Source: Microcella alkalica
GTDB lineage: Bacteria > Actinomycetota > Actinomycetes > Actinomycetales > Microbacteriaceae
Direction of reading: 5' to 3'
Assembly (NCBI RefSeq): GCF_014137945.1
Contig: NZ_JACGWX010000001.1
Span: forward strand, 434,001-498,000
DNA: 64,000 nucleotides
Shown here: positions 19,849 through 35,678 of the stretch, in pieces
Layout: the number at the start of each line of letters is the position of its first letter
Position numbering within the stretch: position 1 is the stretch's first letter
Notes under the pieces: model-generated
Seen by the model: only the letters and a program-made list of their open reading frames with translations
Database searches by the model: none
What the model was told of the DNA's origin: nothing
Made by a program: the position numbers and the translations under genes

Positions 19849-20259
19849 CTAGAAGGGAAGCGCTACTGTGCCCGACTGCACGAGGCCGGTGGTGATCACG
19901 GCGGTGGCGGCGATGAGGGCCGAGCCGAGCATCCCGACGGCGATCGCGGCGGCGTAGCCGGCTCGCGCCGACGGCTGTCGGGCGGCGTCGGCGAGCTCGG
20001 CGGCGTCGACGCGGGTGACGAGGCGGTCGTCGATGCGCGGGGGAGCGAGGCCGACGAGCTCGGTATAGGCCTCGGCGCTCTCGATCGCGGTCTCGATCTG
20101 GTCGGGGCTCGCGGGCTGCTCGGGGCCGACGGGGGCGGTGCGGGCGGCGGGGCGGGTGCGGCTGGTCCACTCGGCGCCATCCCACCAGCGCTCCTGGCCG
20201 GGGATGGTGGGGTCGGCGAACCATCCCTCGCGCGGCTGGATGATCACGATGTCAGTCAC
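19849..20259 (-). CDS. DUF2510 membrane protein (short)
   Basis: A 136-residue protein. Residues about 9-32 form a DUF2510 motif (EGWFADPTIPGQERWWDGAEWT), a short Trp-rich module common at the N-terminus of actinobacterial membrane proteins. SPDQIETAIESAEAYTELVGLAPP follows in pieces, and one hydrophobic segment lies at about 103-130. The middle block recurs in the gene at 20366, so the two are paralogues. GTG start. A C/G-run palindrome lies about 40 bases upstream. Function unknown. Confidence 0.75.
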   Translation of the reverse strand: MTDIVIIQPREGWFADPTIPGQERWWDGAEWTSRTRPAARTAPVGPEQPASPDQIETAIESAEAYTELVGLAPPRIDDRLVTRVDAAELADAARQPSARAGYAAAIAVGMLGSALIAATAVITTGLVQSGTVALPF

Positions 20260-20298
20260 GTGAGAATGCTCCGGGATGCCCCTGGCATTTTTCGGAGC

Positions 20299-20319
20299 GC
20301 CCCCCGAATGGGGGGTGTG
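20299..20319. promoter_or_regulatory. C/G-run palindrome, member of a recurring motif
   Basis: CCCCCC-GAAT-GGGGGG followed by TGTG, about 40 bases upstream of the DUF2510 gene that starts at 20259. Confidence 0.5.
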
Positions 20320-20365
20320 AATCTGCGATCGCGGCTCGGGTTGCTAGTTGGTGCTCGTTCGGAGG

Positions 20366-20848
20366 TCAGCGGCGCGTGCGGATCGCCCCGACGAGGATGC
20401 CGGCGAAGAAGACGACGGCTCCGGCGACGGCGAGCAGGATCGCCGCGGTGGTCTGCAGTGCAAGCACGCCGACGAGGCCGTACACACCCACGATGACGGC
20501 GATGACTCCGGCGAAGACGAGCAGCAGTGATAACCCGCCGACGAGTCGGCGCGTCTTGCGGTCGCGCTTGGGTGCGGTGGCGACCGACAGCAGCGGCACG
20601 GATGCGGGCGACGTCGGGGGAGCGAGGTCGACGAGCTCGCTGTAGGCCTCGGCGCTGAGGATGGCGGCGTTGAGCTGGTCGGGGCTTGCGAGCGCGGTCG
20701 GCTCGACGAGCTGTGACTTGGCGGATTCGCGCGTCTCGTTCGTCCAGGACGTGCCGTCCCAGCGGCGCTCATGGCCGGGGGAGGTCGGGTCGGGGAACCA
20801 GCCCTCGGCGGGCGGTGCCTGGCCGTAGTCGGCGGGGTTAAGGGTCAT
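20366..20848 (-). CDS. DUF2510 membrane protein, paralogue of the downstream gene
   Basis: A 160-residue protein. DUF2510 at about 15-37 (EGWFPDPTSPGHERRWDG), then ASPDQLNAAILSAEAYSELV in the same order as in the 19849 gene, and two membrane helices at about 100-155 ending in IRTRR (positive inside). Both genes are on the minus strand about 105 bp apart. Function unknown; DUF2510 is thought of as a protein-interaction module. Confidence 0.75.
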   Translation of the reverse strand: MTLNPADYGQAPPAEGWFPDPTSPGHERRWDGTSWTNETRESAKSQLVEPTALASPDQLNAAILSAEAYSELVDLAPPTSPASVPLLSVATAPKRDRKTRRLVGGLSLLLVFAGVIAVIVGVYGLVGVLALQTTAAILLAVAGAVVFFAGILVGAIRTRR

Positions 20849-20952
20849 GGCGGGTTCCTCGGGGCTCGGGTGGGCGCGCGTGGGTGAGGCGCGCGGTGAG
20901 GTGAGTTCATTATGCGGCGCGGTGGGCGCCGTGGCGAGCAGGTGGGCTCGCG

Positions 20953-21849
20953 CTACGAGGTGAATGTCGCGAACCGCTCGGCGAGGAAGTCGCGATCGGG
21001 GCGGTCGTCGCGACGGGCCGGCAGCTCGAGCGGCTTGCCGTTCATCGCCTGGAGGCCGTACTGCAGCATGGGCCCGTCACGATCGGCGAGCAGACGTTCG
21101 TTGATATGCACGACGTAGTCGGGGCTGACCCCGAGGAAGTTCTGGTCGTAGGCGGCGTGATGAATCTTGCACATCGCCATGCCGTTCGTAACGACGGGCA
21201 ACCCCCGCTCGTCGGTGTCGGCGATGATGTGCGCGGCGTCGAGGAGCTCGGCGTACTTCAGAGTGCAGACCGCACACCGCTTGTTGTAAGCGCTGAGCAC
21301 GCGCGCCCGAAACACAGGCTGGTGCACGCGCTGTTTGACGAGGCGTTCGACGTAACGCTTGTCGAGCGTGGTCGCCGTGGTGGCGCGCACGCCGCTCTCG
21401 TCGATGTCGATGACGAACTGGCGGCGCTCGGGCAACACGTCGATGACGCGCACCGGAAAGACGGGAACGTAGAGGTTCGGCAGCGGCTTCTCGAACAGGA
21501 TGATCGGCACCTGCTGCTCGAACGCGACGTGCAGCTTGCGGTTGTCGCCGGCGTTGAGGGGGCCCTGCGCCCACGAGTAATAGAGCAACCCACTCGAGCG
21601 GTCGATGGCGTCGTCATAGACGTTGTAGCGGCCTTTATCGCCGGCCGAGACGATCGCCAGGGTGGCATCGAACTCGGCCGGGTTGCGGATGCCCTTGTTG
21701 CGGTCGATGAGCGGGATGCGCAGGCCGCCTCGCAGCGTGAACGCGGTCAGCTCGTCCCGGCTGGCAAAGCCACCTCGCGCGTCGATGAAGAGCTCAAGCT
21801 CGGCGAAGATCTCCAACCGCAGACGTGCCTGTTCCTCGCTCGACAGCAT
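20953..21849 (-). CDS. HNH endonuclease, COG3440-like (putative restriction enzyme)
   Basis: A 298-residue protein. The C-terminal HNH domain has zinc cysteines C192 and C195 (RCAVCTLKY), the catalytic region ELLDAAHIIADTD (H207) and GMAMCKIHHAAYD (C227, H230). The N-terminal 180 residues resemble the recognition part of COG3440 proteins, some of which restrict modified DNA. ATG 21849 has AAGGAG at 5 bases; GTG 21855 is an alternative. It is divergent from a NERD-helicase, with a C/G-run palindrome between them. Restriction of foreign DNA is the likely job. Confidence 0.8.
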   Translation of the reverse strand: MLSSEEQARLRLEIFAELELFIDARGGFASRDELTAFTLRGGLRIPLIDRNKGIRNPAEFDATLAIVSAGDKGRYNVYDDAIDRSSGLLYYSWAQGPLNAGDNRKLHVAFEQQVPIILFEKPLPNLYVPVFPVRVIDVLPERRQFVIDIDESGVRATTATTLDKRYVERLVKQRVHQPVFRARVLSAYNKRCAVCTLKYAELLDAAHIIADTDERGLPVVTNGMAMCKIHHAAYDQNFLGVSPDYVVHINERLLADRDGPMLQYGLQAMNGKPLELPARRDDRPDRDFLAERFATFTS

Positions 21850-21900
21850 CCGCACTCCTTGCCCTATTTCACCGCAGCCTATTGGTAAGCCCAGACTTTG

Positions 21901-21920
21901 CCACCGATTCGGGGGTGTCG
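21901..21920. promoter_or_regulatory. C/G-run motif between HNH and NERD-helicase genes
   Basis: CCACC-GATTC-GGGGGTGTCG, an imperfect palindrome related to the others, within the 105-bp divergent intergenic region. Confidence 0.35.
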
Positions 21921-21954
21921 ACTGCGATAACCAATCGACCTACGCTCAACTCCA

Positions 21955-23688
21955 ATGGCACGGATGATCCCTCCGACGATCGGCGATGACGCCCCACCGG
22001 GGGAGCACGCCGTCTTCGCGGCGCTCCGCGACGCGCCTCGCACCGACGACTGGGTCGTCTTCCACTCGCTCGAGATCGCGCGGCACGTCAGTCAGGTGCA
22101 GGGCGAAGCCGACTTTGTGGTCGTGGCGCCAGGGCAGGGCATCCTGGTCATCGAAGTGAAGTCGCACGAGAGCATCGAGGCTGACGGCGAAGGGCGCTGG
22201 CGCTACGGCAGCCGCGACTGGGTCACACGCAGCCCCTTCGAACAGGCCTCGGGCGCGCAGCACTCCATCATCGAATACCTGCAGTCGAAAGGATCTGGAC
22301 CCGTCGGCTACCCGGTCTTTCACGCCGCGTGGCTCACGCAGCTGAGCAAGACCAAGATCGCCCACAGCATCAGCTGGCACGACTGGCAATTGCTGGATGC
22401 CGCAGACCTCGCGAATGGCAACGCCGCCGCCGCGGTGATCCGCACGCTGACCCACGCGAACACACACCTCGCCGAGAACGTCAGCGGATACCGCCGCGTC
22501 GCGGGACAACCCGACGCTGCGCACACCGCCAGAATCACAGAACTCCTCATCCCACGATTCGTCGCCGAGCTCAGCGCGAAAGAGCTCGCGCGGCGCCGCG
22601 AGGCCGAGCAAGCCCAGTTCACGGCCGAGCAAGTGAAGGTGCTCGACGTGGTCGGAACCAACCCGCGGCTGCTGGTCGAGGGGCCCGCCGGCTCGGGAAA
22701 GACGTGGGTTGCGGCGGAGGCCGCGCGCCGAGCCTGCGTTGCCGGAAAGCGCACCCTCGTCGTCGTCTTCAACCGCCTCATCGAAGCCCGGCTCGCCGAG
22801 CTGTGCGGTGAGGGGGTGGAGGTGCGGCGCATCCACTCGCTGATGGCGCAGGTCGTCGACCGGCATGCAGGGCGCAACGAGGCGCGGCGCAAACTCGAGA
22901 GCGGGCGCGTCGAGCCGGAGTGGTACGACCAGACCCTGCCCGAGCAGGCGCTCGAGGCGGCGCTCGAGCTGGGTCCGCAGTTCGATTACCTCGTCGTCGA
23001 CGAGGCGCAAGATGTGGCGCTCGAGCAGTACCTCGACGTGCTCGACGCGCTGCTCGTGGGCGGGCTCGAGCGCGCCTCGGTCTTCATCACCGGAGACTTC
23101 GACCACCAGGTCATCTACCGCCGGCACGCTGAGGACGGCACCGACGATGCACCGGATGCCCGCGCCACCGTGCTGCGCCGCATCCCGGGTCTCGTGACGC
23201 TGCAGCTGCGGTCGAACGTGCGCATGACCCCCGAGGTGGCGCGCTTCGTGGCCGAGCTCATCGGCGAGCCGACCCTGTACAGCAACCACCGCCGCAGTGA
23301 CGACGACCAGGTCGCCGTCGAGCGCCACCCCTTCACCACCATGGATGAGCAGCAGCACCTGCTCGCTGACGCCATCGAGCGAATCCTGTCGGAGCCGTTC
23401 ACGGTTCGCGAGCTGGTCATTCTGTCGCCCTACGCACGCGACCGGTCGGCTGCAGGCCATGCTCGGGCAGGTCAGGCCATCGATAATCACCTCACCTCAC
23501 GGCTCGGCATGAATATCCAAGACCCGATGCTCATCAGGTGGGGGAGCATCCACGAGTTCAAAGGTCTGGAAGCAGCCGCGGTGATCTTAACCGATGTCAA
23601 CCTGTCGAAGGGCTACCACCGCGACCTGCTTTACGTGGGGGCGTCCCGCGCGACCGACCGGCTTGTGGTCCTGGAGCAAATCAGCTGA
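21955..23688 (+). CDS. NERD domain plus superfamily 1 helicase
   Basis: A 577-residue fusion. Residues about 15-120 are a NERD nuclease-related domain with the active-site pattern EADFVVV (D53) and VIEVKS (E67, K69). A UvrD-like helicase follows: motif I GPAGSGKT (243-250), motif II DEAQD (349-353), motif III GDFDHQVIY, and the C-terminal EFKGLEA and LLYVGASRATDRLVVL. Proteins of this make-up occur in defence islands and probably cut and unwind foreign DNA. Here it faces an HNH nuclease and precedes disrupted genes, which supports that reading. The start is ATG 21955. Confidence 0.85.
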   Translation: MARMIPPTIGDDAPPGEHAVFAALRDAPRTDDWVVFHSLEIARHVSQVQGEADFVVVAPGQGILVIEVKSHESIEADGEGRWRYGSRDWVTRSPFEQASGAQHSIIEYLQSKGSGPVGYPVFHAAWLTQLSKTKIAHSISWHDWQLLDAADLANGNAAAAVIRTLTHANTHLAENVSGYRRVAGQPDAAHTARITELLIPRFVAELSAKELARRREAEQAQFTAEQVKVLDVVGTNPRLLVEGPAGSGKTWVAAEAARRACVAGKRTLVVVFNRLIEARLAELCGEGVEVRRIHSLMAQVVDRHAGRNEARRKLESGRVEPEWYDQTLPEQALEAALELGPQFDYLVVDEAQDVALEQYLDVLDALLVGGLERASVFITGDFDHQVIYRRHAEDGTDDAPDARATVLRRIPGLVTLQLRSNVRMTPEVARFVAELIGEPTLYSNHRRSDDDQVAVERHPFTTMDEQQHLLADAIERILSEPFTVRELVILSPYARDRSAAGHARAGQAIDNHLTSRLGMNIQDPMLIRWGSIHEFKGLEAAAVILTDVNLSKGYHRDLLYVGASRATDRLVVLEQIS

Positions 23689-23820
23689 ACAGATTGTCTG
23701 GACGCTTTACCCTCGGAGTGCCATTCGACTGACGGTCCCCACCCCGGCATTACCGTTGTCCCTCCAATTGGGGCCATCGACCGTTCCGACACGCCCGTTG
23801 CCGCGCTTCCCAAGTTGACG

Positions 23821-23843
23821 ACCCCTCGATAACGTCGAGGGGT
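23821..23843. terminator. Hairpin after the NERD-helicase gene
   Basis: ACCCCTCGA and TCGAGGGGT pair perfectly around TAACG. It could be a terminator lacking a T-run. It also resembles the C/G-run motif, since TGTCG follows. Confidence 0.4.
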
Positions 23844-23954
23844 GTCGCCAGCTCACCTCACCCGTTCCGAAGCCGGGTCGCGCGGCAACATCCAACCTTC
23901 CGTGAGGCGCCACAACTTTTCAGCGACCGCTACGGGCCCAGTAATTGTCGACGT

Positions 23955-24174
23955 TTGCGGGCCGGCTTGAGGGCGCCCCGCTACATACGCTGCCCGGTGT
24001 GCGGTCAGCGGGCCGCGCTCAAAGGAGGTTCGATCATTGGTGCCCACGCAAGCGCAAAGCACGAGAGCTGTGCAGGCCCACGCGAACTTCGCCACGAAGT
24101 AGGGGACCCGACTCGTCGCGACCAGTTTGTGCTCGTCCATCGACTTGAGGAGTTTTTGTCGCGCGTCAGAATGT
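23955..24174 (+). pseudogene. Possible zinc-ribbon protein fragment cut by the IS3 element
   Basis: The frame reads APRYIRCPVCGQRAALKGG, then IIGAHASAKHESCAG, a CxxC...H...C arrangement as in small phage-type zinc-ribbon proteins. The only nearby start is TTG 23955, and the frame runs into the left end of the IS3-type element. I regard it as a plausible but weak gene remnant. Confidence 0.25.
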
Positions 24175-25486
24175 TTGGCAGGGGTAGTTAGTTGCTGATG
24201 CAACGCCCCAGCTGAAAGGTCTGAATGTCATGAGTCGTCCCCCCACGATCCCCGCGGAGAAGAAGCTCCGCATCGTGTTGTCCGTGCTGCAGGGCGAGAT
24301 CACGATCGCCGAGGCAGCCCGCCGCGAGAAGGTCTCCGAGCAAGCGATCGGGAACTGGAAGCGCCAGTTCCTCGAGGGCGGCAAGGCTGGGATCGAGGCG
24401 GGCAAGTCCAAGCCCTCGACCCGGGAGCAGCAACTCGAGGACGAGGTCGCCGAGCTCACCCAGGCTCTGGGTGAGGCAGCGGTTGAGATCCGCGTCTGGA
24501 AGAAGAGCGCCGAGGGCCGCTTGGGCCCTTCGAGGACCTCGAGGTGATCCGCGTCGAGGCGGGCATGTCGACTTCGAGGTTCTGCCAGCTGATCGACATG
24601 CCCGAACGCACCTGGCGGCGCTGGCAGGCCAAAGCGAAGCAGTCCCGACCGCCGAAGGGCCCGTGGCCGCAGCCGGCGAGGGAGGCGGCCCGCGAGCTCG
24701 CCACGAAACACGCCTTGGCGCATCCGGCGTGGGGTCATCGGAAGATCTGGGCGATGACGCGGCATGACGGTCATAAGGTGTCGCAGGCGACTGTGCTGCG
24801 GCTGCTGCGCGATGACGGGCTGATCCTGCCGTCCGAGTACCAGAGGCAGCGCCGCCAGCTCGCGGCGGATCGCAAGGCCGCGTTCGCGAGAAACCCGACG
24901 GGGCCCAATCAGGTGTGGCAGCTGGACTTCAGCGAGTTCGAGACCACGACCGGTGGCACCTGGCGGATCGCCGGGTGCCGGGACTGGTTCTCCAAGGTCG
25001 AGCATCCGTTCCACGTGTCGCCGACAGCGAATCAGCACGACGCGATCGCGGCGATAGAGCTCGCCTTGGTCGATTACGAAGCGATGTTCGGGCACCCGCT
25101 CGTCGACACCTGCCCTATCGATCCCGAGACCGGTGAGCTGCTGCCGGTGGTGACGATCGTGACGGACAACGGCGGCCCGTTCCGGTCGCTGAATTTCGAG
25201 CTGTTCATCATGCGCCACCCCGAGCTACGTCACGTCCGCACCCGAGTGAGATCACCGGGTCAGAACGGGTCACGCGAACGCGGATTCGGAACATTGAAAT
25301 ACGAGCGGCTGTTCCTCGACGACATCCCCGACGCGCTCACCCTCGTCGAACGCGCAGAGGACTACCGCATCGAGTACAACACCGAACGTCCTCACGAAGC
25401 GATCGCCTGGAACCGGCCGATCGACGTGCACCTCGGCCTGGCCGACCCCACCATCCCCAACTTCGAAATCGAAGAAACCCTGCCAA
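24175..25486 (+). mobile_element. IS3-family insertion sequence
   Basis: Two overlapping transposase genes are bounded by short inverted repeats: TTGGCAGGG at about 24175 on the left, and its reverse complement CCCTGCCAA at 25478-25486. Exact tips and target duplication are unclear, because the sequence outside the two ends does not match. A deletion next to the element is therefore likely. OrfB's stop lies a few bases past the right repeat. Confidence 0.75.
24230..24547 (+). CDS. IS3 family transposase OrfA (helix-turn-helix)
   Basis: A 105-residue DNA-binding subunit. KLRIVLSVLQGEITIAEAAR then KVSEQAIGNWKRQFLEGG is the IS3 OrfA helix-turn-helix, followed by a leucine-zipper-like segment (EQQLEDEVAELTQALGEA). 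It binds the element ends. GAAAGG precedes ATG 24230. Its TGA overlaps the GTG of OrfB. Confidence 0.9.
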   Translation: MSRPPTIPAEKKLRIVLSVLQGEITIAEAARREKVSEQAIGNWKRQFLEGGKAGIEAGKSKPSTREQQLEDEVAELTQALGEAAVEIRVWKKSAEGRLGPSRTSR

Positions 25487-25494
25487 CTACTTGA
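24544..25494 (+). CDS. IS3 family transposase OrfB (DDE integrase core)
   Basis: A 316-residue catalytic subunit of the rve superfamily. The triad is D128 in WQLDFSEF, D208 in VTDNGG and E245 in GSRERGFG. The N-terminal HTH_21-like region (HPAWGHRKIWAM) is present. GTG 24544 overlaps OrfA's stop (GTGA), so OrfB may be made by reinitiation and also by frameshift fusion. Both genes are intact. Confidence 0.9.
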   Translation: MIRVEAGMSTSRFCQLIDMPERTWRRWQAKAKQSRPPKGPWPQPAREAARELATKHALAHPAWGHRKIWAMTRHDGHKVSQATVLRLLRDDGLILPSEYQRQRRQLAADRKAAFARNPTGPNQVWQLDFSEFETTTGGTWRIAGCRDWFSKVEHPFHVSPTANQHDAIAAIELALVDYEAMFGHPLVDTCPIDPETGELLPVVTIVTDNGGPFRSLNFELFIMRHPELRHVRTRVRSPGQNGSRERGFGTLKYERLFLDDIPDALTLVERAEDYRIEYNTERPHEAIAWNRPIDVHLGLADPTIPNFEIEETLPTT

Positions 25495-27023
25495 CGCGGG
25501 ACATGTTCCGCTTCATGGTGGGCGAGGTCGACGCGGGGGAGTTGCGCAGCCTTTTCGTGGCCGCCGATCTGCTCGCGCGCCCCGAGTTGATCGAGCGCGG
25601 CATTCGCGTACTCGAAGAGGGTGCCGACTTCGAGCGGGGCGAGCGGTGGGGCGTGTACAACATCCAGCGTCTCTACCTGACCGTGTTGGAGGCGCTCGAT
25701 ATTCGCGAGAGCACCATCCCTGGAACCCCCGCGCGAGCAGAGCTCGTCATGTACCAGCTCGGCAAGTTCTCGCAGGTAATCTCAGACTTCGAGGCCATCA
25801 ACTTCGCCTCAGACCCTGAGCGCAAGTACCAGGGCTTCGTGCGCTTTCTCACCGACGACCGCCAAGCGCCGAGCTACTACGAAGAGAGTGACGGCGACGC
25901 CGGATACGCGACCCCCGACGCGGTCACCATCACGACGGTGCACCGCGCGAAGGGCATGCAGTGGCCGGCTGTCTTCGTGCCGTGCCTGCGCAAGAACCGC
26001 TTTCCGATCCGATCCTCCGGCGGAATCAACCTCTTCCACGTCATCCCCGTCGAGGCAGTGCCCAACGGAGCCCGCTACCGCGGCGGTCGCTCAGAAGAGA
26101 CGCGCCTGTTCTACGTCGCCGTGACGCGAGCGCAAAAGTACCTCTACCTGACCTGGGCCCCCATCGCGAGCAACCAACAGGCTCGCGCCCGCTCTGACTT
26201 CTTCCGAGACGCGGCCGCCTCCGACTGGATGCTCACCGCCGACCCCGGCTTGCCCGACGTGCCCCGGCTCACCCCGACCCCCAAGGTCGAGACGCCGGCC
26301 GTCACCATCTCGTTCTCAGAGCTCAAGTATCTGCTCGAGTGCCCGTACCAGTTCAAGCTGCGCTTCATGTACGGCTTCAACCCGCCGATTCACGAGGCGC
26401 TCGGTTACGGTAAGGGCCTGCACAACGCATTGGCCGAGATGCACAAGCGCGCGTTGGCGGGCGATGTGCCATCGCGTGACGAGACGAAGAACCTCGTCGA
26501 CCGGCACCTCCTGACGCCCTACGCTTACCCGACGCTGCGCGAGAACCTGCGGGCAGCCGCGATTCGGGCGCTCGAGCACTACTTCGACGCTCACGGAGAC
26601 GATCTCACCCGAACCGAGCACAGCGAGAAGCAGATCGAAGTGGTCGTGTCGCCCGGCGTCACGGTGAACGGCCGCATCGACCTCATCAAGCGACTCGAGA
26701 GCGACGAGGTCGCGATCGTCGACTTCAAGTCGACCGAAGATGCCCAGGACTCCGACATGACGCGCGACCAGCTCAGCGTTTACGCGCTCGGGTACCGCGA
26801 GTTGACCGGGGCCTCCGCTGACCGCATCCAGGTGTTGAACCTCGACGAGCGCGGCGACCCGTTCAACGTTCCGATCGATGACGCGCTGCTCGCCGACATC
26901 CGAACAAAGATCGAGGCGGTGGCCAAGGACATTCGCTCCGAGTGGTTCCCGTGCGGGCACGACCACAGTGCTGACACTGCGTTCAACGACTTGGCGTGGT
27001 TGGCGGAGGGATCACCCGGATAG
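25491..27023 (+). pseudogene. UvrD-like helicase/PD-(D/E)XK nuclease, 5' part missing
   Basis: About 510 residues equal to the C-terminal half of a large AddA/UvrD-type protein. Helicase motifs V and VI are present (TVHRAKGMQWPAVFVP and EETRLFYVAVTRAQK), but the Walker A and DExx motifs are absent. A RecB-like nuclease follows: CPYQFKLRF, then GKGLHNALAEMH, GRIDLI, VDFKSTED and QLSVYALGYREL. Relatives usually have about 1000 residues. It begins where the IS3 element ends, so insertion with deletion removed the ATPase half. The nuclease domain could still fold if translated from ATG 25505. Confidence 0.8.
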
Positions 27024-27087
27024 TCCAGATCGTGTCTGCAAAGCGGCACAGCCTCGCCAGGTGTCGGAGATCCGAATTACGACCCTT

Positions 27088-27115
27088 TTGCGCCGTCGTC
27101 GGTCGCCTGTACTCT
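27088..27115 (+). promoter_or_regulatory. Candidate promoter of the retron RNA
   Basis: TTGCGC (27088-27093) and TACTCT (27110-27115) are 16 bases apart, placing the start within a few bases of the first arm of the predicted retron RNA. Confidence 0.5.
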
Positions 27116-27120
27116 CTGAT

Positions 27121-27292
27121 GAGCGAAGGTCGGTGATCTAGTAGTCGCTGAGGAATCATCCTCGGCCTCGTCGAAGCGCTGCAGAGCTGAGGCGCGGACG
27201 GCCCAGTGTCGTCTGCGGCAGGTCGATTGCGACCCGCCGTGAATCACCGTGAAGAACCCAATAGCAACAAAGGTAGACGCCGACCTTCGCTT
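27121..27292 (+). ncRNA. Predicted retron msr-msd RNA
   Basis: The RNA is closed by long-range pairing of 27122-27135 with 27278-27291. This is 12 contiguous Watson-Crick pairs, a G-U and a G-C, as expected for retron a1/a2 arms. Inside, 27147-27153 pairs with 27160-27166 (msr-like hairpin, loop AATCAT). In addition, 27216-27225 pairs with 27230-27239 (msd-like hairpin, one mismatch, loop ATTG), and a 5-bp stem surrounds GCCCAGTGT. It ends 19 bases before the RT gene and has a promoter just upstream. The branching G and exact msd limits are not fixed. Confidence 0.72.
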
Positions 27293-27310
27293 CACCAAGG
27301 AGTCACTTAG

Positions 27311-28432
27311 ATGGTCGAACGGCTTGATCCGAACCTTCGATCGTACTTCGACCTGTCCAGCTTGGTGCAAGTCTCCGGAGCTGACTCGGGCTTCATCGAA
27401 GATGTGGTTGACCGTCGACTAAGTCCGTACTACGTGAGTGCAGTCCCTAAGCGCACTGGTGGGAAGCGCCACATCGAAAAGCCCAACGCCGAGATCCTCG
27501 CGATTCAGCAGCCGATCCTGCGTGACATATTGATGACCAGATCGCCGAGCGAAAAGGTCTTCTCGTATGTGAAGGGTCGTTCGCCGGTTCAATGCGCGCG
27601 TCAGCATCTCGGTGCTCGGTGGCTCCTGAGGGTAGACCTGAAGGCATTCTTCTACTCCATCTCAGAAGTGGACATTTATTACCTGTTCCTCAAAGAGTTC
27701 GGCTTCAAACAGCTCACTGCCTTTCAGCTCGCGAGACTGGTTACTGTCGTGTCTGACGACTCACTCGAAGTGAGCGAAGTCGACCTACTGAAGGCGCACC
27801 CCCACGTGTCCAAGTACCGTTCCCGCTATGTTGCCGGTTACACGCCGCAGGTGCTCGGCCATCTGCCTCATGGCGCCCCGACCTCTGGGGCTTTGTCCAA
27901 TCTCGTATCGCGTCAGCTGGATCACGCCATCGCAGCTCTTGCCGTCCAACACGAACTGGTGTTCGCACGGTACTCCGACGACATCTATCTCTCGGCGCGG
28001 CGGCCGATCACTCGAACTCAATCCACCAAGGTGCTCTCCGATCTCTCAGGCGTCATTCGCGGCAACGGCTTCGTCGTGAACCAAACGAAGACGCGCATGT
28101 CATTCGAAGATGACAAGAAGCTTGTCCTCGGAATCCACGTTGACGGTGATCGGCTGCGACTTCGGCGAGAGTACCGAGACCGAATCGACTACGAACTCCA
28201 CATGATCGAAACACACGGAGCGGAATCTCATGCTCAGAAACGGGGCGATAAGGGGGTCGCATTCCTGCTCGGCCGAGTCTCTGGGCTGATCGCCCATGCC
28301 CAAGATGTCGACCCCGAATGGGGCCGCGGGAGAAGAGCACGTTTCCGCGCGATCCTGATGGACGGCAAGAGCACTGAGGCGCTGCTGCACAAGCATTTGA
28401 CTGAGCGACGAGAACGCCTGAGATCCACCTAA
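27311..28432 (+). CDS. Retron reverse transcriptase
   Basis: A 373-residue RT that would copy the upstream RNA into msDNA. The blocks run in retron order: VPKRTGGKRHIEKP (45-58), CARQH at 95-99 in place of the usual NAxxH region X, LRVDLKAFF (D109), LPHGAPTSGALSNLV (185-199), the catalytic YSDD (221-224, YADD in most retrons) and NQTKTR (257-262). VLGIHVD stands where retrons have VTG. ATG 27311 has AAGGAG 8 bases upstream. Base composition is clearly lower in GC than the flanks, a sign of transfer. Confidence 0.88.
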   Translation: MVERLDPNLRSYFDLSSLVQVSGADSGFIEDVVDRRLSPYYVSAVPKRTGGKRHIEKPNAEILAIQQPILRDILMTRSPSEKVFSYVKGRSPVQCARQHLGARWLLRVDLKAFFYSISEVDIYYLFLKEFGFKQLTAFQLARLVTVVSDDSLEVSEVDLLKAHPHVSKYRSRYVAGYTPQVLGHLPHGAPTSGALSNLVSRQLDHAIAALAVQHELVFARYSDDIYLSARRPITRTQSTKVLSDLSGVIRGNGFVVNQTKTRMSFEDDKKLVLGIHVDGDRLRLRREYRDRIDYELHMIETHGAESHAQKRGDKGVAFLLGRVSGLIAHAQDVDPEWGRGRRARFRAILMDGKSTEALLHKHLTERRERLRST

Positions 28433-28587
28433 ATCGTACTCTTGGATCGCGGTTGCCGCTGATCGGGGTGAAGTTCCTTTTCATCGTCGACCACCTGCTC
28501 AGGCAATCGCGAATCCCCTCCGAGTCGGTGCGCTCGCGACCATGTGTTGCCGTAACCCGGCACAGGGCTTTAAAAAGGTTCAACCAC

Positions 28588-28878
28588 GTGAAAGAGATCA
28601 TCTGCCCCAACTGTGGCAAGGCCTTCACGATCGACGAAGCCGGATACGCCGACATCCTCAAGCAGGTGCGCGACACCGACTTCGAGAAGCAGCTGCACGA
28701 GCGGCTCGAGCTTGCCGACCAGGAGAAGCAGCGGGCGATCGAACTCGCCGAGACGAAAGCTGCCGGCGAGCTGCAGAAGGCTGCGGCCGCGAAAGACTCC
28801 GAGATTCAGGCGCTGAAGGCCAAGCTCGACGCGGGGGAGAGCGCCAACAAGGTCGCCGTCGAGTGGAGTCCCGCATAG
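28588..28878 (+). pseudogene. DUF2130 protein, N-terminal fragment
   Basis: 96 residues: IICPNCGKAFTIDEAGYADI, then LKQVRDTDFEKQLHERLEL and a Lys/Glu-rich coiled coil. This is the start of DUF2130 proteins, which are usually over 400 residues with a nuclease-like C-terminus. The frame ends in the first bases of the rearranged IS110 element. GTG 28588 follows AAAAAGG. It is the first gene after the retron RT. Confidence 0.75.
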
Positions 28879-29015
28879 TGGATGCTCCTATTGCTGTCAA
28901 GCGGCTCGCGTTGGGCGGAGCCGAGCCAGCGCGAGGGTGGCACGTTGCTCGAGTTCGGGGTCGGCGCGGGTGCCGATCTCGAGTCGGCGGAGCCGCTGGT
29001 AGGGGACTCCGAGAG
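28877..29015 (+). repeat. Left arm of the 139-bp inverted repeat
   Basis: Reverse complement of 29873-30011. It creates an artificial open frame at the left edge that starts like an antisense copy of the transposase C-terminus. Confidence 0.9.
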
Positions 29016-29991
29016 GCAGGATCGGCGAGCTCGCAGGCTCCGGGGCAAGTCCGACCCTTTGGACGCGCACCAGGCAGCAGTGACGGTTTTGGCCGACACG
29101 AACACTGCGATTCCGAAGACCGGTGATGGCGCTGTCGAGTCCATACGGATCCTTCTCGGGGAGCGGCGCTCCGCGGCAAAGGCGCGGGCGCAGGCGATGA
29201 ACCAGATCCACGCGCTGCTGATCACCGCACCCGAGCTGGTCCGGCAGGCGTTCCGCGCCCTCAGCGGGCAACGGCTCATCCGCGCGCTCGCAAAGACCCG
29301 CCCCGGCACGAGCGCGTCGGCTGCTGCGGAAGTCGTTGCCCGTCAGACGTTGCGGAGGCTGGCCGTCCGTCACCTCACTATGCAGGCGGAGATCGACCTG
29401 ATCGAGCAACAACTGGATGCCCTGATTCGGCAGGTGAACCCCGCTCTGCTGTCGCTCAGCGGGGTCGGCCCGGTCACCGCCGCGACGTTGCTGGTCGCCG
29501 CTGGCGACAACCCCGAACGTCTCGCCACCCGGGCCAGCTTCGCCGCTCTGGCCGGCGTCGCCCCGATCCCCGCCTCGTCCGGGCAACGCACCCGGCACCG
29601 ACTCTCGCGGGGCGGGAATCGGCACGCGAACGCAGCACTGCACCGGATCGTGCTGCTGCGCATGCGCCACCGGGAGCCGCGCACCATGGCCTACTTCGAA
29701 CGGCGCCGCGCCGAGGGCCTCACCGACCGGGACATCATGCGCTGCCTGAAACGCCACATCGCGAACCAGATCTACGCAATCCTGCTCCACCCCGCCACCG
29801 ACAATCCGGTCGGAAGCGAACTGCGAGCCAGACGACAGCAGATCGGCGTTTCGATCAGCGTGCTCGCCGCCTCTCTCGGAGTCCCCTACCAGCGGCTCCG
29901 CCGACTCGAGATCGGCACCCGCGCCGACCCCGAACTCGAGCAACGTGCCACCCTCGCGCTGGCTCGGCTCCGCCCAACGCGAGCCGCTTGA
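29016..29991 (+). pseudogene. IS110 family transposase, N-terminus missing
   Basis: The frame reads GKSDPLDAHQAAVTVL (third part of the DEDD domain), then the central helices and the Transposase_20 domain (LLSLSGVGPVTAATLL, FAALAGVAPIPASSG and HRLSRGGNRHANAALHR with its conserved serine region). The first acidic residues of the DEDD (RuvC-like) site are missing, replaced by sequence from the inverted arm. The product is probably inactive alone. Confidence 0.8.
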
Positions 29992-30011
29992 CAGCAATAG
30001 GAGCATCCACT
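29873..30011 (+). repeat. Right arm of the 139-bp inverted repeat
   Basis: Encodes the C-terminal 40 residues of the IS110 transposase (LGVPYQRLRRLEIG onward) and about 20 bases beyond. Exact inverted copy at 28877-29015. Confidence 0.9.
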
Positions 30012-30566
30012 TCCAGGGACTTGACCCTCAACACAGTAGAACGAGAGTCCGCAGCTATGAAGGAGAGCCTGAACCGCCTCGCCCGCCACGCGAAGACTCG
30101 CGAGAGTCATCTGCTTGTTCTCATGGACCAAGTGAATGAGAAGCAACGCGTCGATCGCATGCCGAGGCTCTATGCCCACATGTTCAGCCGCTCGAGCGAG
30201 TTCGAAGAGATGAAGCGCCTCGTCGAACCACCCATGCACATCGACAGTGCGGTCAGCGCGAACATTCAGTTTGCTGACTGGGTTGCTGCCTGCGTTTCGC
30301 GGGCTGTCGATTACCAGCTCGTCGAGCGTTCCGAACATGCCTGGGCCACCGGTGGGGTCTTCGATGCGGTGCGCGGTGCATTCACCCACAAGTCGAAAGT
30401 GCATCTCTGGAATCGGAGCGTGAACGACATTTTCCACTCGAATGTCTTCCTCCGTGAGCGCGCTCTGTATCCGAGCGTGAAAGGGCATCGAGTGTCGGCG
30501 GGCATGCCGGAAGAGGCGCTGCGGAAGCTTCGAGCTGCAGCCGAGAAAAGTCAACGCCGCAAGTGA
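30012..30566 (+). pseudogene. DUF3800 protein, C-terminal fragment
   Basis: About 180 residues: ESHLLVLMDQVNEKQRV, then RLYAHMFSRSSEFEEMKRLV, PPMHIDSAVSANIQFADW and VAACVSRAVDYQL. This is the second half of DUF3800, an RNase H-like fold family. The N-terminal strand with the DESG signature is missing, cut at the right arm of the IS110 element. Translation could only start inside the repeat or at ATG 30058. DUF3800 has been catalogued among retron-associated proteins as I recall, so this may be a lost effector. Confidence 0.75.
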
Positions 30567-30699
30567 CCCCTCTCCTCGTCGCGAACGATGACTTCGTGAG
30601 GTGCTCACAGTGCAGGCAATCGGGGTCGCGCTGGCGTGCACTGATCCCCATGGAGCGTCGAGAGAGATGCAAAACACTGATTCAATGGTGATCGCTAAA

Positions 30700-30734
30700 C
30701 CTGCCATAAGCGGATATAATGGCAGGTATACCTG
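30700..30734. promoter_or_regulatory. hipBA promoter and operators
   Basis: A perfect TATAAT (30715-30720) lies inside an inverted repeat whose arms are CCTGCCAT (30700-30707) and ATGGCAGG (30719-30726). The 12-bp palindrome CAGGTATACCTG follows at 30723-30734. HipB-type repressors bind such sites to shut off their own operon. Confidence 0.75.
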
Positions 30735-30746
30735 TCAGGGGGCGTC

Positions 30747-31046
30747 ATGGTTCAGCGAGCATCCGCACGGCAGCAGCGCCTGCTGCGCGAGTTCGGGGCG
30801 CATATCCGAACGTGGCGGAAGCTCAACGGGGTGTCGGCCACCGACCTCGCCGCGCGTGCCTTCGTCACGCGCGAGACCCTTCGGCACATCGAGAACGGCA
30901 CCGGCTCACCGCGGCTCGACTCGGTGGTCGCCGTTCTGACGGCGCTGGGCATCGCCGACACGGTCGTGACGGCGGCTGACCCGTATCGGTCAGAGGCAGC
31001 GCGCGCTCGACTCGACGCCATCATCGGTGCAGGCGGCACGCCGTGA
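30747..31046 (+). CDS. hipB: HipB-like antitoxin, XRE-family repressor
   Basis: A 99-residue DNA-binding protein. LLREFGAHIRTWRKLNG, then SATDLAARAFVTRETLRHIENG and SPRLDSVVAVLTALGI form the XRE helix-turn-helix. It would neutralise the HipA encoded immediately downstream (GTGA overlap at 31043-31046) and repress the operon through the palindromes upstream of ATG 30747. Confidence 0.85.
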   Translation: MVQRASARQQRLLREFGAHIRTWRKLNGVSATDLAARAFVTRETLRHIENGTGSPRLDSVVAVLTALGIADTVVTAADPYRSEAARARLDAIIGAGGTP

Positions 31047-32317
31047 ACCGAGTCGAGGTCTATCTCGACGGCCTTGAGGCAGGGCCTGTGCACGTCGGAG
31101 CGCTCGAGGCCTCATTCACTGGCGGTCGCGCACTCGCGTCATCGTCGTTTCAGTACGCGCCGAGCTATCTGGCGCATCCGGGCCGATACGCCCTCTCGCC
31201 CGACCTCCCGCTCGCGACCGGGCGCCTCTACACCGACGAGACTCGGCCGCAGTTCGGGGCGTTCGCCGACGCGGCGCCCGACGAGTGGGGCCGCAAGATC
31301 GTCGAGGCCGACCACGCCCGGCGCCGCACGCTCGACCCGACGATGCCCGCGCAGCTGGGGCCGTTCGACCTGCTTCTCGGGGTCGCCGACCGCACGCGCA
31401 TGGGGGCGTTGAGGTTTCGCGCGGGCGACTCGAGCGAGCATCCATGGCTCTCGGAGGACAGCGGCGTCGCGCGCCTGCACGAGCTCGACCACGTCGTCGA
31501 GGTGGCGCGTCGCTACGACGCCAACGAGGCAACCGATGACGACCTTGCCTATCTGTCTGACATCGCCACGAGCGCCGGCGGCGCACGCTCCAAAGCGAAC
31601 GTGCTGATCGCCAACGGCCAGCTCGCCATCGCGAAACTGCCTCACTCGAAAGACGGCGTCTTCGACGTCGAAGCCTGGGAGGCCCTCGCGCTCACCATCG
31701 CCGGCCGCGCGGGGCTGGCGGTGCCGCGCTTCAACCGGGTGCCGGCCGGGGCGTCGACGTCGGTGCTCCTCGCTCACCGCTTCGACAGAACGATCGACGG
31801 CTCGCGCATCGGCTACATCTCGGCCGCGACGGCCATGAGCATCGGCGAGCACGAGGGTCGCAGCGTGACCTACGTCGATTTCGCGGATGCTCTCGCCGAG
31901 CTCAGCGAGAACCCTGCGGCCGACCTGCGCGAGCTGTACGGCCGCGTCGCCCTCACCGTGCTCATCAACAACGTCGACGACCACTGGCGCAATCACGGGC
32001 TGCTGCGAGGGCGCACCGGCTGGCGACTTGCTCCCGTGTTCGACCTGAACCCGTCGCGCTCGCGCGGAGTCATCACCTCGCGGCCCATCAGCGCCGACGA
32101 CGACCCGCGCCGCCGTGATCTGCGCAGCCTCATCGCGGTGGCCGACGCCTTTGGCCTGTCTGGCGCGTCGGCAGCTGCAGTCGTTCGGGGAGTCGGCGAG
32201 CAGGTGGCGCACTGGCGCGACGTCGCCCGCGAACGGCAGATCGACTCAGGCCAGATCGAGGCGATGGCTGTCGCGTTCGACGAGCAGCAGCTCGACTACG
32301 CGCTCGGGCTCGTCTAG
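31043..32317 (+). CDS. hipA: HipA-family serine/threonine kinase toxin
   Basis: A 424-residue kinase. The N-subdomain-1 region (FADAAPDEWGRKIVEAD) comes first. The ATP-loop GGARSKA (179-185), nucleotide lysine K198 (AIAKLP), HRFDR (245-249), catalytic NNVDDHWRNHG (309-319) and metal-binding VFDLNP (D334) are all present. E. coli HipA phosphorylates glutamyl-tRNA synthetase; the target here is unknown. All catalytic residues look intact, so the toxin is probably active when unbalanced. Confidence 0.9.
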   Translation: MNRVEVYLDGLEAGPVHVGALEASFTGGRALASSSFQYAPSYLAHPGRYALSPDLPLATGRLYTDETRPQFGAFADAAPDEWGRKIVEADHARRRTLDPTMPAQLGPFDLLLGVADRTRMGALRFRAGDSSEHPWLSEDSGVARLHELDHVVEVARRYDANEATDDDLAYLSDIATSAGGARSKANVLIANGQLAIAKLPHSKDGVFDVEAWEALALTIAGRAGLAVPRFNRVPAGASTSVLLAHRFDRTIDGSRIGYISAATAMSIGEHEGRSVTYVDFADALAELSENPAADLRELYGRVALTVLINNVDDHWRNHGLLRGRTGWRLAPVFDLNPSRSRGVITSRPISADDDPRRRDLRSLIAVADAFGLSGASAAAVVRGVGEQVAHWRDVARERQIDSGQIEAMAVAFDEQQLDYALGLV

Positions 32318-32364
32318 AGCCCCCACCGGACGTGCCGCAGCCGCTCGACCCGCTCCACCTCAAC

Positions 32365-32370
32365 TACCGT
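32365..32370 (+). promoter_or_regulatory. Leaderless -10 hexamer of the pRiA4b ORF-3-like gene
   Basis: TACCGT, 7 bases before ATG 32378. Confidence 0.5.
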
Positions 32371-32377
32371 GGTCGCC

Positions 32378-33706
32378 ATGCACGTGCGCCTCTCGCTGAT
32401 CGACTCGGTGCCACCCGTCACTCGCGACATCGCGATCGACCCCGGCACGACGCTCGACGTCGTGCACCTCGTCATTCAGCGGCTGTTCGACTGGCAGAAC
32501 GTGCACCTGCACCGCTTCGACTCGGTCGACACGTACGAGCGGTGGCGCGCGGATGTGCCTGAACCCCGCTCGTGGCTGTTGCCGTCACTACTCGACGAGT
32601 TCGACGGCGAGCCTGACGCTGACGCCACACTCGCCGAGGCCCTCACGGTGGGCGGCGGCACGCTCTGGTACGAATACGACTTCGGCGACAGTTGGCGGCT
32701 CACGATCACCGCGATCGACGGCGACGACACCCCGCGGTGCGTGCTCGCGGCGGTCGGGCAGCCGCCGCACGACGACTCCGGCGGAGTCCACACCTTCAAC
32801 GAGCGCCGCGCGAAACGGGTCACCGCCTCCGAGCCGGTCGACATTGCCGCGCTCGACACTGTCGCGCTCAACATTGCCGCGCTCGACGCGAGCGTGCAGA
32901 CCTTGCTCGCCACCACGCGCACCCTGCCGCTTGTGCGCCCCCTGCTCACACGCGTCACGACCGACGTCGGCTCAGACTGGTGCGCGCGCATCGCGGCCGC
33001 GGCGGAGCATCCGCCGATCGTCGACGACGCAGCGATCGCCGCCAGCATCAGACCCATCGAATGGATGCTCCGCCGCATCGGCCCCGACGGCACAGCTCTC
33101 ACGGCCGCGGGCTGGCTGCCGCCCGCGATCGTGCGCGACGCCATGCGCGAGCTCGACTGGGAGCATCGCGACGTCGGCATGATGAATCGCGAGGACCGCA
33201 CCTTCGCCATCGCCGACCTACGGGCGCTCATGCGGCAGCTCGGGCTGCTGCGCGTCGCGAAGGGTCGCATCGTGCCGACCGCGGTCGCGCGGCGTCTGCT
33301 CGATGACTCGCGGGCGCTGTGGGGTCACGTCGCCGAGCAACTCGTCGAGCGCCAGCCGAAGCCGGTCGGTCGCGACCTCATGCTGATGCTCGCGCTGCAG
33401 CTGGTCTCGGGGGAGGCGCTCGACGAGCAACCGCTCGCTGACCGCATGGCGCGCGACCTCACCGAGCTGGGATGGCGAGACCCGCGCGGCAGTCGGCTCG
33501 AAGAGCTGCTCGACGGCCGCGTGACGCCGGCGACGGCGGCGAGCATGCTGTCGTGGGCGCAGCAGCCGCTGCGCGACCTCGGCGCCTACCCCGAGAGCGG
33601 GCGGCGGCGGTGGGAGTGGGGCAGCGAGCCGACCGAGATCGGTCGGGCGCTGGGGTGGGCGATGCTCGGCGGCACGCTGGTGCAAGGTCAAGACCAGATT
33701 ACTTAA
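32378..33706 (+). CDS. Plasmid pRiA4b ORF-3 family protein
   Basis: A 442-residue protein. The N-terminal domain (HVRLSLIDSVPPVTRDIAI, then HLVIQRLFDWQNVHLHRF and WYEYDFGDSWRLTI) is the pRiA4b ORF-3 fold. The C-terminal 250 residues are helical and Arg-rich without a recognised domain. The family occurs on plasmids and accessory regions; its role is unknown. It sits between two hipBA modules on the same strand. ATG 32378 is chosen from the leaderless promoter; GTG 32369 is in frame. Confidence 0.85.
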   Translation: MHVRLSLIDSVPPVTRDIAIDPGTTLDVVHLVIQRLFDWQNVHLHRFDSVDTYERWRADVPEPRSWLLPSLLDEFDGEPDADATLAEALTVGGGTLWYEYDFGDSWRLTITAIDGDDTPRCVLAAVGQPPHDDSGGVHTFNERRAKRVTASEPVDIAALDTVALNIAALDASVQTLLATTRTLPLVRPLLTRVTTDVGSDWCARIAAAAEHPPIVDDAAIAASIRPIEWMLRRIGPDGTALTAAGWLPPAIVRDAMRELDWEHRDVGMMNREDRTFAIADLRALMRQLGLLRVAKGRIVPTAVARRLLDDSRALWGHVAEQLVERQPKPVGRDLMLMLALQLVSGEALDEQPLADRMARDLTELGWRDPRGSRLEELLDGRVTPATAASMLSWAQQPLRDLGAYPESGRRRWEWGSEPTEIGRALGWAMLGGTLVQGQDQIT

Positions 33707-33741
33707 CGTATGTATTCATGGACATTAAAGTGGTTTAGGTC

Positions 33742-33747
33742 TACTAT
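33742..33747 (+). promoter_or_regulatory. -10 hexamer of the second hipBA operon
   Basis: TACTAT, 10 bases before ATG 33758, in an AT-rich pocket (about 33700-33760) that is rare in this DNA. Confidence 0.45.
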
Positions 33748-33757
33748 TAGCTACATT

Positions 33758-34066
33758 ATGAGCAACTCAGGGCGTCCCGTTCCCTACGCTGTCGACTCCG
33801 CAGCGCGGGAGATCGGCGCCCATCTCGCCACCTGGCGCAAGCTCCAGCGGCTCACCGCGCAGCAGCTCGCCGAGCGCGCCGGAATCGCACGTTCGACGCT
33901 CTCCAAACTCGAGAACGGCGACAGCAGCGTCGGGTTCGACGTGGTCCTCCGCGTCGCCCGGGCGCTCGGTGTGCTGCAGCAGTTGGAGGACGCGCTCGAT
34001 CCGCTCGAGACCGACCTGGGTCGCGCGCGAGCCGACGAGCGCTTGCCGCAACGGGTGCGCTCGTGA
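33758..34066 (+). CDS. HipB-like antitoxin (second module)
   Basis: A 102-residue XRE-type regulator. REIGAHLATWRKLQR, then TAQQLAERAGIARSTLSKLENG and VGFDVVLRVARALGVL give a clear helix-turn-helix. ATG 33758 follows TACTAT; ATG 33710 would add 16 unlikely residues across the promoter. It overlaps the downstream hipA by GTGA. It is only distantly similar to the first HipB, so the pairs are probably not cross-reactive. Confidence 0.82.
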   Translation: MSNSGRPVPYAVDSAAREIGAHLATWRKLQRLTAQQLAERAGIARSTLSKLENGDSSVGFDVVLRVARALGVLQQLEDALDPLETDLGRARADERLPQRVRS

Positions 34067-35298
34067 CGTCGATCACCGCCGCGCTGCAGCTGGATGAGAG
34101 CGCGCCGCCTATCGACGTCGCAACCCTGTACTCGCAGGTTCGTCGACGCACGGTCACGTCGACGCTGGCCTACACCGCCCCATTCGTCGAAGCGAGCGAG
34201 GCCTACGCGCTCGAGCCCGCACTTCCCCTGACGCTCGCCGCGCAGCCCATCGACGGGGTGCTGCCGCGCAGTTGGGCCGACGCGGCTCCCGACCGGTGGG
34301 GGCGAACCCTGATCGAGCGCCGATGGCGGGGCGGGGCATCCGCTGCGGGCGATCGCGCGCACGATGACCGCGACTACCTGCTGGCCGTCTCAGATCTCAC
34401 GCGGCAGGGGGCGCTGAGGTTCCGCCGCGACGGTGAGGCGGAGTTCGCGGCCGCGACGACCGAGGTCCCGCCGCTCGTCGAGCTGCCCCGACTGCTGCGG
34501 GCTTCCGACGCCGTCGTGCGCGACAACGACGACTTCGCCGCGGTGAAGGCTCTGCTGGATGCGGGCACGGCGTCGCTCGGCGGTGCCCGACCCAAAGCAT
34601 CGGTGCGCGACGGCGTCACGCTGCACATCGCGAAGTTTCCGAGGCCGGGCGACGAGTGGAACGTCATGCTGTGGGAATCAGTGGCGCTTGAGCTCGCCTC
34701 GCGATGCGGCGTGCACGTGCCGGCGTGGAAGGTGCTGCCGATCGACGGACGGCAGGTGCTCGTGCTGCAGCGATTCGATCGAATGGGCTCCCGGCGCATC
34801 AACTACATCAGCGCCCTCACGCTGACGCAGGGTCGTGACGGCGACCTCGGCGACTACCTCACCATCGCCGACGAGCTCGCCGCACACGGGGCGCGGGTGG
34901 CGAGCGATCTGCGTCAGCTCTGGCTGCGCATCGCCGTCGGGGTCGCCCTGCACAACACCGATGACCACTTGCGCAACCACGGCTTCGTGCGCGCACGGTC
35001 CGGGTGGGCTCTCGCCCCCGCGTTCGACATCAACCCCGAGCCCCTCGCGGCGAACCGGCACGCCACGGCGCTGGCCGGTCGCGACGACGCGAAGGGAATG
35101 GCTCAGGCGCTGGTCGAGCACGCGGCGATGTTCGGCCTCGCACCCGACGAGGCTCGTGCGGGCTGCAGCCGCGTTGTCGGCCAGGTGAGCCAGTGGCGCG
35201 AGGTCGCCCGGGCGGCTGGCGCGCCGGCGCGCGAGATCGAGCGGTTTGCTGACGCGATCAACGCAGGGCTCGAGTCGCTGCGAGCGGCGGCGAGCTAG
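34063..35298 (+). CDS. HipA-family kinase toxin (second module)
   Basis: A 411-residue HipA homologue. SWADAAPDRWGRTLIERRW opens the family; GGARPKA (173-179), K191 (HIAKFP), QRFDR (236-240), NTDDHLRNHG (298-307) and FDINPE (D322) complete the kinase site. Sequence identity to the 31043 toxin is modest, pointing to separate acquisition rather than recent duplication. Its TAG stop interlocks with the stop of the truncated htpX on the other strand. Confidence 0.88.
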   Translation: MTSITAALQLDESAPPIDVATLYSQVRRRTVTSTLAYTAPFVEASEAYALEPALPLTLAAQPIDGVLPRSWADAAPDRWGRTLIERRWRGGASAAGDRAHDDRDYLLAVSDLTRQGALRFRRDGEAEFAAATTEVPPLVELPRLLRASDAVVRDNDDFAAVKALLDAGTASLGGARPKASVRDGVTLHIAKFPRPGDEWNVMLWESVALELASRCGVHVPAWKVLPIDGRQVLVLQRFDRMGSRRINYISALTLTQGRDGDLGDYLTIADELAAHGARVASDLRQLWLRIAVGVALHNTDDHLRNHGFVRARSGWALAPAFDINPEPLAANRHATALAGRDDAKGMAQALVEHAAMFGLAPDEARAGCSRVVGQVSQWREVARAAGAPAREIERFADAINAGLESLRAAAS

Positions 35299-35672
35299 AA
35301 CTCGCGCGTCACGGCGAGCACCGCGTCGCCCGGCTTCAGCGAGGCGGCGAACGCGTTGGGGGCATCCTCATCGATGACGCCGATGCGGGGCGTCGGGATG
35401 CCGGCACGGATCGCCGTCGTCTCGACGATGCGGTGCAGGCACCGCTCCTCCTCGGCGGTCACCGTGCGCAGGCCCGCCGTCTCGGCCGCGGACTTGGTCG
35501 CGTTGGTGAGCGCCTGCCACACGTAGAGCGGGCACGCGATCACGATCAGCACCAGTGGCCACAGCTCGGCGAACACCCACGACGCGAAAAGGCCCAGGCC
35601 GATCACCGCGAGGCAGAACAGGGCGATGAGCAGGATGCTCCACCGCTTGTTGCGGGCGATCTGCCGGTACAC
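35295..35672 (-). pseudogene. htpX: HtpX/M48 metallopeptidase, C-terminally truncated
   Basis: 125 residues equal to the start of HtpX: two membrane helices (RWSILLIALFCLAVIGLGLF and the following ELWPLVLIVIACPLYVW), then GIPTPRIGVIDEDAPNAFAA and a break at DAVLAVTREF. Normal HtpX continues with the zinc-binding HExxH and two more helices (about 290 residues). The cut lies exactly where the second hipA ends. GTG 35672 follows TAGATT by 6 bases, so the promoter survives. Confidence 0.8.
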
Positions 35673-35678
35673 GGGGTG

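Follow-up and report, generated by a model that had tools for sequence, protein, structure and literature searches.

Organization of the locus

The window (the whole 64,000-nucleotide stretch of Microcella alkalica DNA analyzed here) encodes a reverse transcriptase (RT) of 373 amino acids, similar to those of type III-A retrons (27311 to 28432), and upstream of it a predicted retron noncoding RNA (ncRNA; msr-msd), which spans 27121 to 27292 if the a1/a2 helix is taken as its bounds. The RT reading frame is intact and carries the catalytic motifs. An AAGGAG motif resembling a ribosome-binding site (27297 to 27302) is located 8 nt 5' of the RT start and downstream of the a2 arm, and the RT ATG is immediately preceded by an in-frame TAG, with no N-terminal extension. 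Retrons comprise an RNA and a reverse transcriptase that makes a small single-stranded DNA (msDNA), usually in phage defense; they are described as tripartite.

The flanking genes were identified by homology and, like the retron features, are on the forward strand. The 3' part of a UvrD/PD-(D/E)XK helicase-nuclease gene (25491 to 27023) ends 97 nt from the a1 arm; it lacks its 5' part, which spans about 420 codons in relatives, and lies beside an insertion element with transposase ORFs at 24230 to 25494. Downstream of the RT is the 5' fragment of a zinc-ribbon/coiled-coil gene with a CPNCGKAF motif (28588 to 28878, with homology extending to 28862), which we presume to be DUF2130-like, with no such match in Pfam. 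An IS110-family transposase gene (28882 to 29991) separates it from the 3' fragment of an unrelated DUF3800 gene (29988 to 30566, with homology from 30042), pointing to deletion or rearrangement at the element. We also note two HipA-family genes in the same region (31043 to 32317 and 34063 to 35298), each behind a small ORF of helix-turn-helix-like appearance (30747 to 31046 and 33710 to 34066).

The retron lies within an 11.6-kb variable region. In a genome of the same genus (G074), DNA about 90 to 92% identical to the window extends to 23,677 and begins again at 35,303, the same flanks there being 29.5 kb apart, and in G1166 and G235 these flanks are likewise separated on a single contig. 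The UvrD/PD-(D/E)XK gene is intact in G068 and G1166 (924 and 933 codons) with no adjoining retron, and the 28588 to 28878 fragment has a 94% identical counterpart in G1166, where no retron lies between these genes. A homologue of the DUF3800 fragment is intact and stands alone in G1155, a genome with no match to the window RT; the fragment itself gave no PADLOC match at E <= 0.001. The helicase-nuclease, zinc-ribbon, and DUF3800 genes thus all occur in relatives with no adjoining retron, and we rejected each as the effector; because they are also truncated here, these neighbors are unlikely to be retron partners.

The reverse transcriptase

The top profile for the RT is PADLOC RT_III-A (PDLC02944; E 9.6e-106, 353 bits), and the second-best PADLOC model is also III-A (194 bits); type VII-A1 models score 115 bits. 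Among NCBIfam families, the retron St85 family matches at 1e-44 (153 bits, under that family's cut-off of 235) and a group II intron family at 2.8e-7. When a profile of the RT and seven relatives was compared with solved proteins, the nearest were retron RTs (Ec86, 4.2e-51), with group II intron RTs at 3e-15. Among the classes compared (retron, group II intron, and DRT), the RT thus belongs with the retron clade. The first-pass annotation had recognized an RT of retron layout, which the PADLOC, NCBIfam, and solved-structure scores bear out; it had also named a grouping with group II intron RTs as evidence against its reading, and the RT falls among retron RTs.

Relatives are sparse. In counts that include the window's own genome, RT matches were found in 2 of 26 genomes of the genus (E <= 1e-10), 56 of 398 of the family (E <= 1e-3, mostly longer RTs of roughly 450 to 760 amino acids with E above 1e-27), 4 of 396 of the order (E <= 1e-35), 5 of 394 of the class (E <= 1e-40), and 1 of 396 of the phylum (E <= 1e-35). 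An RT of about 425 to 760 amino acids, 26 to 32% identical to window RT residues ~50 to 350, is thus present in many genomes of the family (L007 to L030). A scan of named genomes with an RT alignment (A1) and a single LP[QH]G pattern yielded 29 loci; the 20 at the head of the list are all actinobacterial. The single window RT sequence found no relative in genome contigs or viral contigs; alignment A1 did retrieve relatives in both. The highest identity to the window RT is 36 to 37%.

In a tree, the window RT forms a long branch beside actinobacterial type III-A RTs, its place being unsure. A second tree holds 38 type III-A-like RTs, including that of the window and, from the 80 viral-contig loci, only L071 to L073 and L100. 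Left out were L049, L055, L056, and L059 (the same places as L033 to L036), L158, L159, and L157 (the same as L151, L152, and L057), L068 and L069 (RT in two pieces), and the distant L062 to L064, L066, L067, L070, and L186.

L057 (5914 to 7929; Nocardioides currus) and L061 (5923 to 7965; Geodermatophilus telluris) encode a type III-A-like RT with a C-terminal domain carrying a HELAH zinc-peptidase motif (in L057 a weak Pfam Peptidase_M78 match, E 0.0065, below cut-off), and L039 (in G470) groups with them at 100/98. From their sequences, L057 and L061 are possibly an undescribed RT-metallopeptidase retron type; a literature search on such a retron found nothing pertinent. A DUF3800-like gene is located directly upstream of the RT in L040 (G050) and L041 (G068, elsewhere in that genome from the helicase-nuclease gene), with intergenic stretches of 71 and 81 nt; the L040 RT is type VII-like by PADLOC, and a 13-pair arm match lies in its intergenic stretch.

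The first-pass annotation proposed a divergent actinobacterial retron type on the grounds that the RT has YSDD, CARQH, and VLG motifs. These motifs are present as stated, and the proposal holds insofar as the RT is a long-branch lineage beside type III-A RTs, but the motifs are not unusual in the clade. Among the 38 type III-A-like RTs, window included, 22 have YSDD (the other 16 have YADD) and 29 have CAxxH, and VLG is common to six of the seven relatives aligned with the window RT in an eight-row alignment. The argument from unusual signatures therefore fails as evidence of a new type, since all three are frequent among type III-A relatives and, judged from these alignments, are clade features. 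Divergence is seen in other properties: the missing PRTase gene, the missing N-terminal extension, and an ncRNA interior that a covariance model misses, as set out below.

One RT feature is peculiar to the window. The His in LPHG, which replaces the Gln of LPQG and could impair catalysis, is found in 1 of the 38 RTs compared; only Q or H was visible at this position in the named-genome scan, which used the one pattern LP[QH]G[AG]P[TS]SG[AL], and the viral-contig scan accepted LP[QH]G... or RY[SA]DD..., other letters at those places being invisible.

The noncoding RNA

The arms of the RNA pair as the first-pass annotation described them, with 27122 to 27135 opposite 27278 to 27291 and an outer G-U at 27121/27292, giving an outer helix (27121 to 27135 with 27278 to 27292) of 15 pairs with a mean pair probability of 0.98. 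Past a bulged A at 27136, an inner TCTA/TAGA helix (27137 to 27140 with 27274 to 27277) adds 4 pairs with a mean probability of 0.97, so that the a1 arm (27121 to 27140) and the a2 arm (27274 to 27292, with AAAGG at 27269 to 27273 just before it) form 19 pairs with one bulge. The inner TCTA/TAGA is also present in relatives such as L044. The G at 27141 is a candidate branching guanosine, a role that we take from retrons generally; it is the invariant G after TA, in a TAG that is kept in 19 of 19 aligned relatives.

Within the arms, three hairpins are confidently predicted and a fourth (27170 to 27193) is weaker; the annotation had noted two. The confident ones are hairpin 1 (27147 to 27166), probably in msr, GCGGACGGC/GTCGTCTGC (27194 to 27216), and GGC.GGTCG/CGACC.GCC (27217 to 27238), probably in msd. 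The promoter proposed at the 5' edge did not stand: TTGCGC (27088 to 27093) and TACTCT (27110 to 27115) exist, each with 3 of 6 consensus bases by inspection, a promoter scan of 26950 to 28650 reported none, and we dropped this reading. A similarly placed TACTATCCT or TACTACCCT represents the effector C-terminal codons YYP in five of the six canonical loci L033 to L038 (not L034).

The fold of 27100 to 27310 has a z-score of -4.19, with none of 200 shuffles as good, and a helix matching the outer 15 pairs was found in none of 500 shuffles of 27024 to 27310. We note that, among the other 663 overlapping 287-nt tiles in this GC-rich window, 10 contain a helix of equal or better quality, which makes the helix by itself weak evidence. 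Its ends are more telling. At its inner end the helix carries CTAG/GGTAGA, like the ncRNAs of actinobacterial type III-A retrons; in 19 aligned examples of these, the TAG after a1 and the GTA ahead of a2 are invariant. A descriptor of the end motifs and flanking helix, composed with the window sequence already known, detects 19 of the 23 regions linked to a PRTase gene and none of five others (L039, L050, L057, L060, and L061). Of the four misses, three may be due to the regions used, which for L071 and L072 were too short (at 124 and 130 nt, respectively) and for L100 was truncated. On both strands of the 64-kb window, this descriptor finds a single place (27138/27270; score 13.4), and 150 whole-window shuffles gave none at a helix score of at least 12 and about 0.06 per shuffle at a score of at least 8. 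The homologues keep complementary upstream arms, the lack of which the first-pass annotation had named as counting against a retron. As judged from the RT family and the ncRNA ends, the reading of the window RT and ncRNA as a real retron is supported.

The interior of the RNA is another matter. A covariance model (R1) was built from 11 type III-A ncRNAs, with at least one compensatory change at 21 of its 33 consensus pairs, and at E <= 1e-4 it recognizes 9 of 16 loci outside the training set (8 of the 11 that are PRTase-linked and 1 of the remaining 5). A default R1 search found nothing near 27121 to 27292; with filters off, its match at 27182 to 27309 (8.2 bits; E 0.0031 for 801 bases) was not in register with a1. 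Neither did a sequence profile of the 19 ncRNAs find the window ncRNA, nor did Rfam give a match at E <= 1 in 26000 to 29000. The window RNA thus shares with the type III-A family its terminal helix and end motifs alone, and these motifs are 132 nt apart in the window versus about 148 to 191 (median 167) in the 19 relatives. Because R1 misses the window and the spacing is shorter, the interior is a new or much changed kind; its hairpins are predicted without comparative support because no homologue closer than 36 to 37% was found.

Effector gene and N-terminal extension

Of the 38 type III-A-like RTs, 32 have a PRTase-family gene upstream, near copies having been kept (L054/L035, L100/L183, and L179/L180) so that these loci are not independent, and the window is among the six without one. 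In L033 to L038 the ncRNA lies between the effector and RT genes, with a1 overlapping the end of the PRTase gene and a2 overlapping the opening codons (for PHL) of the RT as called here. The L038 effector, the only one of these six on which PADLOC and Pfam were run, matches PADLOC PRTase_III-A at 8.5e-71 and Pfam PRTase-CE and wHTH-PRTase_assc; the six also trained our effector profile, so their own matches to it are not independent, and the L180 effector match is in two pieces. A loose search (E <= 10) for PRTase_III-A found no match in the M. alkalica genome, which is in 13 contigs and 99.99% complete, and gave matches in 12 of 14 control genomes. Nor did the effector profile match any frame of at least 40 amino acids in window positions 20001 to 36000, and we set aside a PRTase relic at the locus on that account.

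PRTase-linked RTs have about 40 residues ahead of the RT core, whereas the window RT has 12, counted from the stop codon. With leave-one-out extension profiles, 29 of 31 PRTase-linked RTs score above 8 bits (L182, whose RT frame is broken, was kept in the tree and excluded from this count; L071 and L181 have the length and not the score). None of the six RTs without a PRTase gene and neither of the two DUF3800-linked RTs does so, four of these eight (the window, L039, L040, and L041) being too short ahead of the core to score. Two supported independent pairs agreed in nearly all of 200 pairings, a number of pairs too small to reach significance, so that the association of the extension with the PRTase gene is suggestive. 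Because the extension is missing and seems to go with the PRTase, the comparison argues, without proving it, that the window RT comes from a lineage adapted to PRTase absence rather than from a fresh deletion. An extension that travels with the PRTase predicts that it docks the type III-A effector.

Interpretation

We consider it probable that this is a divergent, effector-free, two-part retron (ncRNA and RT) derived from actinobacterial type III-A-like retrons. The RT would bind the ncRNA, which the 19 pairs of the a1/a2 helix close, and prime at the conserved G27141, the putative branch site, and the 3' hairpins would be copied into msDNA. The toxic or defense output may have been lost, be supplied in trans, or be exerted by the RT-ncRNA complex itself, and the cassette appears to sit in a variable part of the genome, flanked on either side by an unrelated, truncated gene.

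It is possible, if unlikely, that the locus is a relic in which the PRTase gene was lost by rearrangement at the insertion elements or on transfer, with the RT and ncRNA drifting and making little or no msDNA. The truncation of both neighboring genes beside insertion elements, the LPHG unique to this RT, and the empty PRTase searches of the frames and genome are as such a history would have them; the intact RT frame with its catalytic motifs and the retention of all 19 arm pairs are not, nor is the absence of the extension, as in other PRTase-less loci, from an RT that starts cleanly after an in-frame stop. A rather doubtful proposal is that of an autonomous two-part lineage, in which the RT has shed the PRTase and extension and is maintained for an RT-ncRNA-msDNA complex alone or for a partner in trans.

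That a non-PRTase effector acts in trans, encoded elsewhere in the genome and unlinked to the RT, seems improbable. An apparently intact RT and ncRNA unlinked to any effector would suit it, as would the other clade RTs without a PRTase gene (L050 and L060); against it, no candidate was found in a genome search covering the PRTase family. To our knowledge, retron effectors are encoded in cis or as fusions with the RT, which also counts against a trans effector.

It is quite improbable that the retron is complete and a neighbor is its effector, either the upstream UvrD/PD-(D/E)XK protein or the downstream DUF3800 protein, as in type VII. The helicase-nuclease gene does occupy the usual effector place 5' of a1, and PADLOC names both type VII DUF3800 proteins and RT-associated helicases (RTasHel). 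Both genes, however, are truncated here and intact without an adjoining retron in the genomes given above, and with the DUF3800 fragment unmatched in PADLOC and the RT far below its III-A score in type VII-A1, this is not a type VII system. Least credible is another RT class (group II intron, DGR, or DRT) beside a chance hairpin, which the miss by the type III-A covariance model and the equally long helices elsewhere in the window might suggest and which the RT family scores and family-specific helix ends contradict.

A divergent two-part retron, with an intact RT and a1/a2 helix and no effector, bears on the role of RT and msDNA without an effector. The CTAG/GGTAGA helix ends also provide a search handle for divergent retrons missed by covariance models.

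Comparison with known systems

The canonical type III-A retrons (PRTase-CE and wHTH effector, ncRNA, and RT; e.g., L033 to L038 and L042 to L048) share with the window the RT family PDLC02944, an ncRNA directly upstream of the RT, helix ends of the form [CT]TAG / A[AG][AG]GTA[AG], and the invariant G after TA. In contrast to these, the window lacks the PRTase-wHTH gene and the N-terminal RT extension and has LPHG; its arms overlap neither an effector end nor the first RT codons, and its ncRNA interior is shorter and unrecognized by the covariance model. Its best RT profile is that of type III-A; because the upstream PRTase-wHTH gene is absent and the ncRNA model fails, the window retron is not a full type III-A member.

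The lone RTs of L050 (Ancrocorticia populi) and L060 (Arthrobacter agilis) resemble that of the window in having neither a PRTase match nor the extension, but in the tree L050 is placed elsewhere and L060 is unsure. L050 (5763 to 6996) is surrounded by core-looking genes, and its ncRNA is recognized by the type III-A model (E 4.6e-7). An effector-free actinobacterial type III-A-like retron was not found among the open-license papers that our literature searches listed.

Two described retrons are comparable (PLoS Biol 2025, PMC12548924). Retron-Sda1 has a type III-A1 ncRNA and, like the window, a type III RT without PRTase; it adjoins HipA and DUF3037 genes, whereas the window RT adjoins neither, its neighbors being the UvrD/PD-(D/E)XK and zinc-ribbon fragments and the nearest hipA starting 2.6 kb downstream, so it is not Sda1-like. 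Retron-Bth1 is described in the same paper as having no apparent effector gene and an RT interrupted by a group II intron, and as making RT-DNA (PMC12548924); the window likewise has no apparent effector, with an uninterrupted RT whose DNA production is predicted. Retrons without the usual effector are therefore already known, as shown by Sda1 and Bth1 (PMC12548924).
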